Below are positions 35,836 through 47,836 of a stretch of 64,000 nt of DNA, piece after piece; the first letter of the stretch is position 1, and every line of letters begins with the position of its first letter. A model generated the notes under the pieces. The model searched no databases, was not told the origin of the DNA, and was given only the letters and a program-made list of their open reading frames with translations. Location: the NCBI GenBank assembly GCA_900155405.1, contig LT700188.1, positions 682,001 to 746,000 on the forward strand, read 5' to 3'. The position numbers and the translations under genes are program-made. The stretch is from Negativicoccus massiliensis. Lineage in GTDB: Bacteria; Bacillota; Negativicutes; Veillonellales; Negativicoccaceae.

Positions 35836-35841
35836 CGCGTA

Positions 35842-35957
<116 letters not shown>

Positions 35958-36038
35958 TTACTTGCTGAGTTCGCTGTTTGCTCCCTCAAAACTATACAGA
36001 AGAAGTAGATCACCTTCGTAGTTCATTCGTACTTTCTA

Positions 36039-38959
<2,921 letters not shown>

Positions 38960-39144
38960 TTTCGTATCGAATGTTTCTCTACGTTTGGTGTTCTCTTGTG
39001 TATCAAGAGTTTCTTTCTTCTTCTGTGTAGTTTTCAAAGAACAATTGAGGAATCTTACGATTCTCTCAAAACTAAACAATGCAAATTGCCAATGTGTCGA
39101 CCTAAGTGACCGGATCTTAACTTTCGTTATGATCGGTTCGGTCT

Positions 39145-40714
<1,570 letters not shown>

Positions 40715-40853
40715 GTTTGATCGCTCATTTGTTTGCCTTGTTGCCAAGGACTTTTGTAATTGACTCGGGTCTGTATATCAGACCCGCACATTGGCGTTAA
40801 TTCTTTGCATTGTTCAGTTTTCAAAGAACCGCGTCGCTTCATGCGACTTTTAT

Positions 40854-40883
40854 AGTATACCAAACACTCGGCTTTGTTGTCAA
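40854..40883 (-). promoter_or_regulatory. rRNA operon promoter, proximal
   Basis: TTGACA (40878-40883), 18-bp spacer, TATACT (40854-40859) on the minus strand. A TTCTTTGAAAACTGAACAA leader element, common before Firmicute rRNA genes, follows. Confidence 0.75.
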
Positions 40884-40928
40884 GCACTTAATATACTTTG
40901 TTGCGCCGCCGTTTCTTGCGGCTTGATT

Positions 40929-40957
40929 ATCATAGCATTGCAACTATATCTTGTCAA
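40929..40957 (-). promoter_or_regulatory. rRNA operon promoter, distal
   Basis: TTGACA (40952-40957), 17-bp spacer, TATGAT (40929-40934) on the minus strand, about 75 bp upstream of the proximal promoter. Confidence 0.7.
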
Positions 40958-41130
40958 GAACATTTTACAGATGTCGGGTTGAATTTTTGCAAACCTTTAT
41001 AGATGTACTAATTTATAAACATATGATGCAATTTAAGTAAATGATTTTTTATCTCTAAACCAAATTGCCGTATTACTATAGTGTAAATTTTCAGCGGGAA
41101 TGTCGACGAGTACGCCGGATATTCATTCGA

Positions 41131-41211
41131 CAAAAAGCGCCGCCTCATCTTGGCAGCGCTTTTATATTTTTCATATTTATGACATTGATGTGAAAAGGCA
41201 AGACAGGTAAC
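41131..41211. repeat. left copy of an about 81-bp direct repeat flanking the accessory cassette
   Basis: About 94 percent identical to 44476-44557 with five small differences. It contains the AAAAGCGC/GCGCTTTT terminator hairpin that in the right copy ends potE. No gene ends at this left copy. Confidence 0.9.
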
Positions 41212-41299
41212 GCTGACTTATTTATTATTAAAGCAATTAATTTAATATTTTTTAATAATTATTGTTTTAAAAATGGTTTTATTTTTCATTTTCAAAACT

Positions 41300-41339
41300 G
41301 ATAGCTATTATGTTTACAATATAGTATAATATAACTATC
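41300..41339 (+). promoter_or_regulatory. imperfect inverted repeat around the -10 region of the cassette
   Basis: GATAGCTAT (41300-41308) and ATAACTATC (41331-41339) are an 8-of-9 inverted pair enclosing a consensus TATAAT (41325-41330). No good -35 box is seen at the matching distance. This could be an operator for a metal-responsive or other repressor. The stretch 41212-41299 is very AT-rich and otherwise featureless. Confidence 0.4.
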
Positions 41340-41380
41340 ATCTATTTCATAATATATTTCAAACTTTATGGAGGCCTTTT

Positions 41381-43342
41381 ATGGAGCAGAAATATCGTAA
41401 ACTATTACCTGTTGTAATTCTTGCCGCCACAACATTTTCCAATAGTATTACCACTAATGCGCAAGACGTAAATAAACGGTCAATCTACTCCCTACCTCCA
41501 GTTATTGTTACAGCCACCCGATCTGAAAAGAAAGATATAGATATCGCTGCATCAACCAAAGTATATAGCAAAGAAGATTTAGTAAAAACCGGAACTTCAA
41601 ACATTATCTCTGCCCTGAATTACACTAACGGCCTTACTTTCATGGGCTATGGACCTGAAGGCTCTTCTTTAGGCTCCAAAAATAGCCAGCTTATCATTCG
41701 TGGGGTAGATAAAGGGACGCTCGTAATGATTAATGGCACACCTCTTAATTTAAACGGCCGATATAACTTGGAAGATCTTCCATTCGACAGTGTGGACAAA
41801 GTAGAAATCGTTAAAGGTGGAGGTTCCGTACTTTATGGGAGCGAAGCTATCGGTGGTGTAATAAACATCATAACTGCAAATGAATTACCTAACAAAATAT
41901 CTCTTGCTGCAGGCACTAAAAATCGTCAGAAATATAATTTTAGTACCCAGGCAGGCAAACTTTCTTTCGCATATAGCCATAACCACTGGGGTGCATCACT
42001 AAAAACCTCGGACTTAATAACAAGCAAAAAGAAAATGAATAATTATGTCCGAGATATCCAAAAAAATAGTTACTTTATAAATTACCGGTTTAATGACCAC
42101 TCCAGCCTCATGTACCAGCACACCCAGTCAAAAAAAGATTATGATTACGTTTTTGGTGAGGGCTATGATTTATTAACAGATAAAATCAGATACAACAGAT
42201 TATATAATTACAAAAAAGATTTTTTGCAATACCATTTTAATAATAACTCAACAAAAGGAATCATTTATTATAACCGCTCTCTTTCCGATAGTTCAAATAC
42301 AGACTTTATGTCTTCTCGCGGAAGCAAACACGGTTACCCCAAATATGTATTTGAACAAGAAGAAAACTACTCCTATGGTGGTGATTTGATGAAAACGTGG
42401 AATAACAAATCCGCCAAATATACTTTAGGGGTGAATTTCCAGCATGAATATTATAAACCTGATACCTTCGCCAATAAACATTACAGCAAAAACAATTATT
42501 CAATCTATGCACAATATGAAAAAAGCTTAAATGAGCAAAATCATTTTCTTTTAAGCGCCCGCGAGACCTGGGCCAAAATGCCTGAAAAAACATTTAATAA
42601 TTTCAGTGGACAAATACAGTATATTTATAAACTTACAGAAAATGAAAGTCTTTATGCTTCTATCGGACAATCCTTCAGAATGCCTTATCTTAGGGAGATG
42701 TATTCTTCAGGAGTCAATCGCTTAGAAGGAAATACTGCATTAAAGCCGGAAAAGGGCATGCATTATGAGCTGGGCTGGAAGAACCAGCATAATAATCATC
42801 TTTGGAAAGCCAGCTTATTCAAATACTATATAAAAGATAATATCGCCTATACACTAGGAAGGGGTGGTGGCAAAAGCTATTCTACCAATCAGGACTTAAA
42901 GAATTTTGGTGTCGAAGCTTCTGTTAATTATCAAAATGCATTAGGCTTAAATTATCATTTAGGATTAACTGTTCATAATCCTAAAGTAAAAACAAGATCC
43001 GATAATGCACCATCTACTGTACAAGTTAAGAATTATTGGGATCGTATTTACGGACAAATGCAAATAAGCGGAGGAATCGGCTATACAAAAAATAAATGGT
43101 CAACTAATTTAGAAGGTACTTACATGTTTAAAAGAGTTGCTTCTCCCAGCAGTTCTCCCTCTTTTGATATAAAACCTTATTTTCTTACTTCTTTAATGAT
43201 ACGTTATGCTCCCAACAAAAACAGTAATGTTACATTCACAATGCAAAACTTATTGAATAGAGCTGATAATTTTGGCGGATCAACTACCGCTTATTACTCT
43301 ACTCCCCGTTCTTACATGATTGAATATGAGCATAAGTTCTAG
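41381..43342 (+). CDS. TonB-dependent outer-membrane receptor
   Basis: Predicted energised importer across the outer membrane. Its 653 residues comprise a signal peptide (cleavage about TNA-QD), a TonB-box-like PPVIVTATR, a plug domain (about 45-165, with QLIIRGVDKGTLVMINGTPL and VEIVKGGGSVLYGSEAIGGVINI), then an Asn/Tyr-rich 22-strand-type barrel ending in Phe (EYEHKF), the outer-membrane insertion signal. Gene and flanks are visibly AT-rich compared with neighbours. No TonB, ExbB or ExbD gene is in the window. The partner gene downstream (DUF4198) suggests a metal or metal complex as cargo; a vitamin or siderophore remains possible. Confidence 0.92.
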   Translation: MEQKYRKLLPVVILAATTFSNSITTNAQDVNKRSIYSLPPVIVTATRSEKKDIDIAASTKVYSKEDLVKTGTSNIISALNYTNGLTFMGYGPEGSSLGSKNSQLIIRGVDKGTLVMINGTPLNLNGRYNLEDLPFDSVDKVEIVKGGGSVLYGSEAIGGVINIITANELPNKISLAAGTKNRQKYNFSTQAGKLSFAYSHNHWGASLKTSDLITSKKKMNNYVRDIQKNSYFINYRFNDHSSLMYQHTQSKKDYDYVFGEGYDLLTDKIRYNRLYNYKKDFLQYHFNNNSTKGIIYYNRSLSDSSNTDFMSSRGSKHGYPKYVFEQEENYSYGGDLMKTWNNKSAKYTLGVNFQHEYYKPDTFANKHYSKNNYSIYAQYEKSLNEQNHFLLSARETWAKMPEKTFNNFSGQIQYIYKLTENESLYASIGQSFRMPYLREMYSSGVNRLEGNTALKPEKGMHYELGWKNQHNNHLWKASLFKYYIKDNIAYTLGRGGGKSYSTNQDLKNFGVEASVNYQNALGLNYHLGLTVHNPKVKTRSDNAPSTVQVKNYWDRIYGQMQISGGIGYTKNKWSTNLEGTYMFKRVASPSSSPSFDIKPYFLTSLMIRYAPNKNSNVTFTMQNLLNRADNFGGSTTAYYSTPRSYMIEYEHKF

Positions 43343-43401
43343 CTAAGAAACAAAAGAAAATATAATGTGAATAATATATATTTATTAGAAAGGGGATTAC
43401 C

Positions 43402-44217
43402 ATGAATTTACTTTTTTTTGCTAAGATTGCTTTATCAACAGCTTTTTTATCCGTTCTCTTTACCACAGGAGTCAGTGCCCATACTTTATGGATTAATATG
43501 AGTGATTATAATCCCATCTACCGCCCCGGCCGCGGTGCAGCAACACACATATATATGGGATGGGGTCATCATTATCCTGTCGACGGATTTGTTAACAGCG
43601 ATGATTTCACCGACATTTCCTTAGTTTCGCCATCAGGGAAAAAAGAGGCCCTTGCTTTGAGAAAAGACGGTTATGGCGAGACAAAACTGACGCTTCGTGA
43701 AGAAGGCCTTTATCTCATTGCCATTACAAGACGAACTGCCATGAATACAACGTACAGAGAAAATGGCGAGGAAGTAGCCATCAAGGGTCCAAAAACCGGA
43801 CATGACGATATTGTGAGCAGCGTTTATTCCCAACAGTTTGCCAAATCTGTTTTCCTTTCTGGCAACAGTTTCACAGGGGATATCAGTCGTCCTATCGGCC
43901 ATACCTTGGAAATTATTCCCCTGACTAACCCCTTTGCTTTGGAAAACAACCGGGGCGGCCGCATGAAAGTAAAAGTTCTTTATAAGGGAAAACCTCTTGC
44001 ATTTCAAAAGATTCAGGCCACGTATGAGGGCTATTCCAAAGGCGATGAATCATCTGCTTATGTATCCACAAACAGAGAAGGTGTGGCTGAAATCCGCATC
44101 GACCACTGGGGTGCATGGGTCATAAAAACAAGATTTGACACCACTCCTTGTGATGAATTAAAAGATAAGGTAAATACAGAAAGATATTTTGCATCTCTGA
44201 CTTTCCTCGTTCCTTAA
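43402..44217 (+). CDS. secreted DUF4198 family protein, possible metal-binding partner
   Basis: 271-residue exported protein. The signal peptide ends VSA, so the mature chain begins at His27 (HTLWIN). DUF4198 proteins, including NikK of nickel ECF systems, are periplasmic and linked to nickel or cobalt uptake. Visible features are an N-terminal His, WGHHYPVDGF near residue 52-61, and two Ig-like halves, the second starting near VKVLYKGKPL. It lies 59 bp after the receptor gene, with AAAGGGG before the ATG, so one operon is likely. Function is inferred from family and neighbour. Confidence 0.82.
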   Translation: MNLLFFAKIALSTAFLSVLFTTGVSAHTLWINMSDYNPIYRPGRGAATHIYMGWGHHYPVDGFVNSDDFTDISLVSPSGKKEALALRKDGYGETKLTLREEGLYLIAITRRTAMNTTYRENGEEVAIKGPKTGHDDIVSSVYSQQFAKSVFLSGNSFTGDISRPIGHTLEIIPLTNPFALENNRGGRMKVKVLYKGKPLAFQKIQATYEGYSKGDESSAYVSTNREGVAEIRIDHWGAWVIKTRFDTTPCDELKDKVNTERYFASLTFLVP

Positions 44218-44279
44218 TTTCACCGGTGTTCCGTTACTAAACAATAAGCTGTTTATCATTTAACAGTTTATAATACAAG

Positions 44280-44313
44280 AAAAAAGCACTTACATTTCTG
44301 TAAGTGCTTTTTA
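44280..44313 (+). terminator. terminator of the TonB receptor-DUF4198 operon
   Basis: AAGCACTTACA/TGTAAGTGCTT hairpin with flanking A- and T-runs. Confidence 0.85.
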
Positions 44314-44319
44314 TATTTA

Positions 44320-44369
44320 TCAGCAGTTTCCTATCCTCCCGAGCAGCCTCCGACCAAACACTTTCGACG
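44320..44369 (-). pseudogene. 5S rRNA remnant
   Basis: 50 nt aligning without gaps to the 3' end of the local 5S gene (35843-35892), 38 of 50 bases identical. It is joined directly to a 16S remnant, so it cannot make a 5S RNA. Confidence 0.7.
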
Positions 44370-44370
44370 C

Positions 44371-44472
44371 TGCGGAAGCCTCCCCACTGCTGTCCCCCGT
44401 AGGGGTCTGGACCGTGTCTCAGTTTCAGTGTGGCCGTTCATCCTCTCAGACCGGCTATTGATCGTCGTCTTG
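44371..44472 (-). pseudogene. 16S rRNA remnant
   Basis: 102 nt aligning without gaps to local 16S positions 40324-40425 (around the universal ACTCCTACGGGAGGCAGCAG site), 94 of 102 identical. Changes hit even the universal site, here ACCCCTACGGGGGACAGCAG. The same strand and order as a 16S-23S-5S operon, with the 23S and most of 16S and 5S missing. Confidence 0.85.
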
Positions 44473-44475
44473 CAA

Positions 44476-44557
44476 CAAAAAAGCGCCGCCTCATCTTGGC
44501 AGCGCTTTTTATGTTTTTCATATTTATGATATTGATGTGAAAAGCAAGACAGGTAAC
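44476..44557. repeat. right copy of the direct repeat flanking the accessory cassette
   Basis: Second copy of the 41131-41211 repeat. It lies 10 bp past the potE stop and contains its terminator, so this copy is probably the ancestral location. Confidence 0.9.
44477..44511 (-). terminator. terminator of potE
   Basis: AAAGCGC...GCGCTTT hairpin with an inner GCC/GGC step, followed by a T-run on the minus strand. Confidence 0.75.
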
Positions 44558-46016: not shown

Positions 46017-46066
46017 GATAGATCACGATAGATAATGATAGATAACGATAGGTAATGATAGATATG
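46017..46066. repeat. five 10-bp tandem repeats upstream of potE
   Basis: Units GATAGATCAC, GATAGATAAT, GATAGATAAC, GATAGGTAAT and GATAGATATG follow one another without gaps. The period is one helical turn. They lie 118-167 bp upstream of the potE start. Confidence 0.9.
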
Positions 46067-46411: not shown

Positions 46412-47134
46412 ATGGATTTTTTATCCCCTTCATTTTTGCTTTCTCTCGGATCCATTATTCTTTTGGATTTGGTACTCGCAGGTGATAACGCGGTCGTGAT
46501 TGCGATGGCGGCTCGCCAATTACCGCCGCATTTACAAAAGCGGGCGATTTTTATCGGTACGGCCGGCGCGATCATCGTTCGCGCGCTGATGACCGTAATC
46601 GCCACATGGTTATTAGGCGTGCCTCTGATCCAAGCGATCGGCGGTCTGATTTTAATTCCAATCGCGATCAAGCTGTTGCACCAGACCGGCAAAGATACCA
46701 ACAAAGTTCTCTCCGCGACGTCGCTCAGCGGAGCGATTCGTACGATTATCGTGGCCGATGTCGCGATGGGAATCGATAATGTGCTTGCTATCGCAGGCGT
46801 TGCCCAAGGTAATATTGTCCTCGTAATAATCGGCCTTTTGGTCAGTATCCCCTTGGTGGTTTGGGGCAGCCAACTGATCGCCCGACTGATGGATCAATAT
46901 CCGATCCTGGTGCCCGCGGGGGCGGCCTTGCTCGGTTACGCGGCCGGTACGATGATCGTGCACGATCCGATCGTCGGTCGCTACCTGCTCAACATTTCGC
47001 CGCTCATGGAATACTTCGTTCCTGCCGCGATCATTCTTTTCATTCTCGGTTTACCGCGCCTGCTGAGCAAAAAATCATCTGCATCAACAGATACGACAGG
47101 TACCGAAGACAAGACGAATAACGAACAAAAATAA
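46412..47134 (+). CDS. TerC family membrane protein (YjbE type), probable manganese exporter
   Basis: 240 residues and about seven membrane segments. Signature acidic motifs are LDLVLAGDNAVVIAMAAR in the first repeat and DVAMGIDNVLAIAGVA in the second. This is the riboswitch-linked YjbE subgroup of TerC; relatives export Mn2+, in some cases loading secreted metalloenzymes. A polar tail of about 25 residues follows the last segment. It is first of two paralogous genes in tandem. Confidence 0.88.
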   Translation: MDFLSPSFLLSLGSIILLDLVLAGDNAVVIAMAARQLPPHLQKRAIFIGTAGAIIVRALMTVIATWLLGVPLIQAIGGLILIPIAIKLLHQTGKDTNKVLSATSLSGAIRTIIVADVAMGIDNVLAIAGVAQGNIVLVIIGLLVSIPLVVWGSQLIARLMDQYPILVPAGAALLGYAAGTMIVHDPIVGRYLLNISPLMEYFVPAAIILFILGLPRLLSKKSSASTDTTGTEDKTNNEQK

Positions 47135-47155
47135 TTTTTAAGTGAGGTCCTTGTA

Positions 47156-47836
47156 TTGGAAATTTTAACATTACAATTTTGGCTCTCTGTCGCGTCCATT
47201 ATTGTTTTAGATTTAGTATTGGCCGGCGATAACGCGGTCGTCATCGCGATGGCGGCGCGGCAGTTGCCGGCGCGCTTGCAAAACAAAGCCATTTTTATCG
47301 GCGCGGCCGGCGCTATCTTGGTGCGGGCGTCGCTGACTCTGGTCGCGGTCAAGCTGCTGACGGTGCCTCTTTTGCAGGCCATCGGCGCGTTGATTTTAAT
47401 TCCGATCGCGATCAAACTTTTGCTGCCGCAGGAAAATTCGTCGACCGGCGTAAAAAAGGTCGCCTCGCTTGGCTCGGCCGTGCGTACGATTATCATTGCC
47501 GACGTGGTCATGAGTTTGGACAATGTGCTGGCCGTCGCGGGCGCGGCGCAAGGTGATCCGCTGCTCGTCATCATCGGTTTGCTCATCAGTATTCCGCTGA
47601 TCATCGGCGGCAGTAAACTGATCGCCCATTTCATGGAACGCTTCCCTCTGCTGATTCCGCTCGGGGCCGCGATCCTCGGTCATACCTCGGGCGTTATGCT
47701 GCTGCATGACGGCATCGTCGGACCGTATCTTACGGCCTATATTCCGTACGCCGCCTATGTGGTTCCCGCACTGACGATTGCCATTGTGTTGCTTGTGCCC
47801 TATGCGCTCGTACATTGGAACAAGCGACAACGCTAA
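47156..47836 (+). CDS. TerC family membrane protein (YjbE type), second copy
   Basis: 226-residue paralogue of the preceding gene, with the same LDLVLAGDNAVVIAMAARQLP and DVVMSLDNVLAVAGAAQG motifs. It starts at TTG, 8 bp after AGTGAGGT. The pair shares the manganese riboswitch; they may form a heteromer or differ in affinity. Confidence 0.87.
   Translation: MEILTLQFWLSVASIIVLDLVLAGDNAVVIAMAARQLPARLQNKAIFIGAAGAILVRASLTLVAVKLLTVPLLQAIGALILIPIAIKLLLPQENSSTGVKKVASLGSAVRTIIIADVVMSLDNVLAVAGAAQGDPLLVIIGLLISIPLIIGGSKLIAHFMERFPLLIPLGAAILGHTSGVMLLHDGIVGPYLTAYIPYAAYVVPALTIAIVLLVPYALVHWNKRQR

Follow-up and report, generated by a model that had tools for sequence, protein, structure and literature searches.

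A TonB receptor-DUF4198 operon of Dialister-family origin beside an rRNA operon of Negativicoccus massiliensis, probably gained by recombination anchored in rRNA genes

Transformation experiments have shown that foreign DNA can be integrated by homology on one side and by illegitimate joining on the other (de Vries & Wackernagel 2002; Prudhomme et al. 2002, as cited in PMC3646047). Plasmids pM1-pM3, which contain homology to the 16S and 23S rRNA genes, carry markers into distant species by transformation in vitro (Nordgard et al. 2012, PMC3364145), and no transformants were detected with these rRNA-homology vectors in the rat gut (PMC3364145). In Chlamydia suis, the rrn-nqrF gap beside the rRNA operon is a plasticity zone (PMC10715202). 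Moreover, DUF4198 proteins have been characterized as secreted nickel binders with an N-terminal histidine, which frequently have TonB receptors as neighbours (PMC12537917).

This paper describes a two-gene cassette, encoding a TonB-dependent receptor and a DUF4198 protein, that lies between a native rRNA operon and potE in the window, i.e., the 64,000-nucleotide stretch of the N. massiliensis genome that was analysed. The locus is a natural instance of a type of event that is already known, and not a new kind of system. It resembles homology-facilitated illegitimate recombination in that foreign DNA lacking mobile genes would be tied on one side to DNA common to donor and recipient, and would be joined without homology on the other. 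It differs in that the proposed anchor is an rRNA operon, in that recipient DNA was duplicated instead of deleted, and in that the crossover itself would have been deleted. As with pM1-pM3, rRNA homology would let DNA enter a distant species; those plasmids, however, are laboratory-built and designed for two-sided replacement within the 16S-23S region, whereas the present locus is natural, one-sided, and decayed. The locus shares with the C. suis plasticity zone the presence of acquired DNA in a gap beside an rRNA operon, although the integration in C. suis used inv homology and known islands, and the available part of that account (PMC10715202) describes no donor rRNA stub. Finally, the cassette resembles IsDUF4198 (PDB 9GCB; PMC12537917) in its Pfam DUF4198 domain, the N-terminal His following the signal peptide, and the neighbouring TonB receptor; the sequence match of the window protein to 9GCB is weak (E 0.02), and metal ligands other than the N-terminal His are candidates. 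The features of the locus are the following.

35841-40713, minus strand: native rRNA operon (Rfam matches), with 5S at 35841-35957, 23S at 36037-38960, and 16S at 39151-40713
40714-41130, minus strand: native rrn leader, promoters, and spacer, orthologous to the leader in the congeneric genome G001
41131-41212, unstranded: 81-bp terminator repeat, left copy, duplicated from the potE-side terminator; weaker similarity to the right copy ends at about 41226
41213-41380, plus strand: upstream region of the TonB receptor gene, 17% GC, with the left joint inside
41381-43342, plus strand: TonB-dependent outer-membrane receptor of 653 aa (PF07715, PF00593)
43402-44217, plus strand: secreted DUF4198 protein of 271 aa (PF10670)
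44281-44312, unstranded: bidirectional terminator with a 14-bp stem, assigned to the donor rRNA operon
44319-44369, minus strand: 3' end of a donor-type (Dialister-family) 5S rRNA, about nt 66-116, approximately 51 nt, assigned by score comparison
44370-44475, minus strand: internal 16S rRNA fragment, about nt 289-390, approximately 105 nt (Rfam 75.6 bits, E 5e-22)
44477-44556, unstranded: 81-bp terminator repeat, right copy, which is the ancestral terminator of potE; weaker similarity to the left copy ends by 44572, reaching the potE stop codon
44568-45953, minus strand: potE, putrescine-ornithine antiporter, the native flanking gene (TIGR04299, NF007938)

The two cassette genes are separated by 59 bp and constitute a two-gene operon, preceded by a candidate promoter that matches the consensus only (TTTACA-17-TATCAT, at 41313-41341 upstream of the TonB gene). 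The receptor consists of a plug domain (PF07715, residues 53-160, E 1.6e-20) followed by a beta-barrel (PF00593, residues 189-624, E 2.4e-32), and it scored 137 bits against TIGR01779, the profile of the vitamin B12 receptor BtuB, far under the cut-off of 599.7; the DUF4198 protein scored 138.3 bits against PF10670 (cut-off 34). Composition was evaluated in a 464-kb genome sample comprising 345 ORFs, in which the GC content of the TonB gene (0.356) ranked 4th lowest and that of the DUF4198 gene (0.431) 16th lowest, at a sampled genome GC of 0.517. The GC3 and codon use of both genes were atypical as well. These data agree with an earlier note on this DNA, which had described two near-identical 81-82-bp repeats around an AT-rich two-gene operon that stands out from the DNA around it and lacks a transposase or integrase. 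The two repeat copies are identical at 77 of the 80 aligned bases, with 3 indels, and the ORFs between them, which are only the TonB and DUF4198 genes, include no transposase, integrase, excisionase, or other mobile gene.

Among 60 relatives, the closest relative of the DUF4198 gene was a broken gene in Dialister micraerophilus DSM 19965, which belongs to another family and has a GC content of 35.5%. The identity amounted to 83.6% at the nucleotide level over 795 bp and to 83% at the amino acid level in an unbroken stretch of this pseudogene, which has lost its start codon and contains frame breaks and an in-frame stop. The 212 putative orthologues shared by this genome and D. micraerophilus displayed a median amino acid identity of 49% (best, 82.5%), and the window protein was only 43% identical to the DUF4198 protein of a member of the recipient's own family. 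Since the gene has 84% DNA identity to a gene of another family with 35% GC, its horizontal gain, and with it a foreign origin of the DUF4198 gene, is shown. The best relatives of the TonB receptor were also found in Dialister-family genomes (42-45% identical), as compared to 34-35% for its own family; no close copy of the receptor was found among the relatives, and D. micraerophilus is without a TonB gene beside its DUF4198 gene. The cassette as a whole is best explained as a horizontally acquired TonB-receptor/DUF4198 operon from a Dialister-family donor that is not among the genomes compared.

In D. micraerophilus, the DUF4198 gene and the terminator precede the last 17 nt of a 5S gene and approximately 150 bp of other sequence, after which a 3.9-kb assembly gap begins, with a far flank that is rrn-promoter-like. 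This gap is probably an rrn operon, recognised by its flanks only, which places the D. micraerophilus DUF4198 copy beside a probable rRNA operon. This arrangement is most naturally taken to mean that the DUF4198 operon of the donor lineage runs toward the tail end of an rRNA operon, part of which would have been included in the transferred DNA.

The right end of the insert contains an rRNA scar that goes unmentioned in the earlier note, and in which the DUF4198 gene is followed by the donor rrn terminator, the 5S end, the 16S piece, the right repeat, and potE. Positions 44275-44335 of the window are 92% identical to the D. micraerophilus stretch that adjoins the rrn-like gap. The 5S stub scored 50-64 with Dialister-family 5S, 28-42 with 5S of the recipient's own family, and at most 30 in shuffles, by which a chance 5S match was ruled out; moreover, the stub is Dialister-type at all three positions that are fixed differently between the two families. 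The 16S fragment, also delimited as 44371-44472, is joined to the 5S stub at one end and to the right repeat at the other; it is slightly decayed and 93% identical to the genome's own 16S, with recipient-type bases at two firm diagnostic sites and a donor-type base at one. In approximately 450 genomes of the order and phylum, several Dialister assemblies (including that of D. micraerophilus) being without 16S, the closest 16S to the fragment was that of the genome itself. A donor origin of the 16S piece was rejected on the basis of this closest match and of the firm diagnostic sites, and matches to the Rfam trpB motif and L10 leader at the junction were under threshold and were discounted. The order and orientation of 16S, repeat, and potE in the scar are the native ones. 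The decay of the 16S piece is somewhat greater than expected from the repeat pair. The presence of the 16S fragment and the 5S 3' end implies that the right repeat directly abuts rRNA-derived DNA. As the DUF4198 gene and this terminator lie next to a probable rrn operon in D. micraerophilus, the donor fragment appears to have carried rRNA genes that were joined to those of the recipient. The alignments show the insert to end on the right in a donor rrn terminator and a donor-type 5S end, fused to recipient-type 16S.

The surroundings of the cassette are native. The adjacent rRNA operon, one of four in the genome, is recipient-type throughout, with only 4 locally unique substitutions relative to the three other operons and a 16S-23S spacer that is shorter than theirs and without tRNAs; this comparison ruled out that the local operon is a donor/recipient hybrid. 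Its leader contains sigma-70-like sites at 40957-40929 and 40883-40854 and is 92% identical to positions 1-332 of contig C6 of G001 (approximately 330 bp), at 64% identity for the spacer. PotE scored above the NCBIfam cut-offs of TIGR04299 and NF007938, and is 97% identical at the amino acid level to its G001 counterpart. The congener comparison comprised this one genome of the same genus, in which contig C6 starts within 16S and continues with the rrn leader, a spacer of similar length, one repeat, and potE, and in which neither cassette gene was found. G001 carries the empty site: 16S leader, one repeat, potE. The earlier note had proposed to look for exactly such a layout in relatives, and had taken the right repeat for the potE terminator and the left one for its duplicate; both expectations were confirmed by the cassette-free G001, which has its single repeat between rrn and potE and at the same place relative to potE as the right copy.

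A search of the complete 1.36-Mb genome detected the two repeat copies at this locus and no others, which excluded a dispersed element (REP, MITE, or IS end). In the relatives, the repeat had no match in D. micraerophilus or in nearly all others, and weak matches in G001 and a second genome (G035) corresponded to the single native copy and to a similar terminator hairpin, respectively. Three-way comparison with G001 revealed 20 positions at which the left and right copies agree with each other and differ from G001, whereas the left copy alone departs at 5 positions and the right copy alone at 1. The 20 states common to both copies and absent from G001 show, barring gene conversion, that the duplication postdates the split from G001, the sole congener compared. 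The copies are 4-6% apart, which places the event after that split and yet indicates that it is not fresh. Of the recent gain between rrn and potE that had been claimed before, the gain is thus supported by the empty site in G001, whereas its recency has to be toned down in view of the divergence of the copies. The lack of a repeat match in D. micraerophilus and nearly all other relatives, together with the recipient-lineage states in both copies, implies that the repeats derive from the recipient's own DNA and were copied in the event. Judged from these alignments, the 81-bp repeats are the by-product and visible edges of a duplication and not the cause of the insertion.

On the left side, the order is native 16S, native leader, spacer, repeat, and foreign DNA, the joint being where the repeat/potE end passes into AT-rich foreign DNA; no donor left flank was present in the comparison. 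Taken together, 16S-leader-repeat on the left and 16S-repeat on the right imply that the 16S-leader-repeat stretch was duplicated around the insert and that its right copy was mostly deleted; the right-hand equivalent of the leader/spacer stretch (40714-41130) is deleted. The reading that we consider probable combines rrn-anchored recombination on the right with an illegitimate joint on the left near the potE end, duplication of the 16S-leader-terminator stretch, and subsequent deletions. A donor in which the operon lay tail to tail with an rRNA operon would have supplied DNA that entered the recipient, e.g., by natural transformation, and the donor rRNA genes would have paired with the recipient rRNA operon next to potE, anchoring the right side. 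The left end of the donor DNA would then have been attached to a sister copy close to the potE end, with no homology involved, by which the stretch from 16S through leader to terminator would have been duplicated, and deletions would have removed the redundant rRNA genes, leaving the 51-nt 5S stub and the approximately 105-nt 16S stub. The 5S and 16S pieces meet at a non-homologous point, and the crossover inside the rRNA genes is not preserved; homologous pairing is proposed because rRNA DNA is joined to rRNA DNA. Of the repeat- or rRNA-mediated recombination previously put forward as the route, the rRNA variant is strongly suggested by the 5S/16S scar, whereas the repeat variant finds no support, given the lack of a repeat match in the donor lineage (D. 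micraerophilus) and the recipient states shared by both copies. The data suggest that near-universal rRNA genes served as a landing pad for the DNA of another family.

The main rival, to which we assign a minor but appreciable chance, is a wholly illegitimate capture by end-joining or template switching during tandem duplication, in which the 16S piece is filler from the nearby operon and no rRNA homology was used. It accommodates the short length of the 16S piece, as expected of templated filler, and the lack of homology at each of the three visible joints (left; 5S-16S; 16S-repeat), where microhomology amounts to a few bases at most; however, it makes a coincidence of the donor end being a 5S gene and of its fusion to 16S, in the native order and orientation, next to the recipient rRNA operon. 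Typical integrase targets are direct repeats at the 3' end of a gene, arranged such that both the gene and its terminator stay intact, and the direct repeats of this locus lie at the 3' end of potE, include its stop region, and leave potE and its terminator intact. A site-specific island with the 81-bp repeats as attachment sites, and an integrase acting in trans or lost since, is nevertheless very improbable, as no integrase, excisionase, or other mobile gene is present inside the repeats, the repeat was not found in the donor lineage, and neither the recipient-type 16S against the right repeat nor the donor 5S stub is accounted for. Least probable is that the ancestor of the genus already had the cassette and that G001 lost it via recombination between the repeats, which would recreate exactly its single-repeat layout but would require gene conversion to explain why the copies agree against G001 in 20 states and disagree in only 6, and which does not fit a DUF4198 gene nearer to Dialister than to its family-mate.

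Given that DUF4198 proteins bind nickel, nickel uptake is a likely function of the pair, and uptake of nickel (or another divalent metal) is our best guess: a metal complex would enter via the receptor, and nickel would be bound by the DUF4198 protein once in the periplasm. The signal peptide, as read by eye, ends in GVSA and is followed by HTLW, with VSA before the His; A26-H27 is conserved in the two to three homologues compared, and a putative second His ligand is located at mature position 23. An AlphaFold model of the DUF4198 protein built from three sequences was poor (mean pLDDT 52.9). A search of the remaining genome for a CbiM/NikM nickel transporter as inner-membrane partner gave sub-threshold matches only, one of which falls on an ECF riboflavin-type protein. 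This genome also contains a second DUF4198 gene, located near another of its rRNA operons.

rRNA genes are long and conserved enough for cross-species recombination, which laboratory work exploits, and natural cases in which donor rRNA is still attached are rarely noticed, since the traces of homologous recombination are usually lost through the process itself. The joint of the present locus has kept two such stubs, a 5S one of donor type and a 16S one of recipient type. As a tentative and rather doubtful generalization, rRNA operons might be recurrent landing pads for cross-family transfer among human-associated Negativicutes, with 5S/16S stubs as signature and genes for metal uptake as the recurring cargo. 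A searchable pattern is provided by orphan 5S/16S pieces next to AT-shifted genes at rRNA operons, and it may reveal how often such operons mediate gene gain.

A further DUF4198 gene is present in the same genome on the minus strand (locus L157:4660-5469, corresponding to G000:C1:504660-505469), and is very different from the DUF4198 gene of the cassette, with which it shares 19% identity. This second gene is AT-rich; a DUF1638 gene and two tRNAs accompany it, immediately downstream of another rRNA operon. Moreover, DUF4198 is encountered as a decaying pseudogene in both Dialister micraerophilus and the related strain DNF00626 (L012:5340-6151 and L029:6021-6203), where it is preceded by the same HlyD/ABC-2 transporter operon and the loci lack a TonB gene.

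In the local rRNA operon, the spacer between the 16S and 23S genes (window 38961-39150) is shorter than its counterparts in the three remaining rRNA operons, and is devoid of the tRNA genes that the latter spacers contain. Within the 16S rRNA fragment, a universally conserved hairpin (window 44390-44410) is changed from CUCCUACGGGAG to CCCCUACGGGGG, a paired change of U-A to C-G that is unexpected in a decaying 16S fragment, and that may have arisen by chance.

Upstream of potE, a short array of about five 10-bp, GATAGATAAT-like units is found (window 46017-46066). Finally, two neighbouring genes encoding TerC-family membrane proteins (window 46412-47836) share 73-82% DNA identity across aligned stretches, and look like a tandem duplication.
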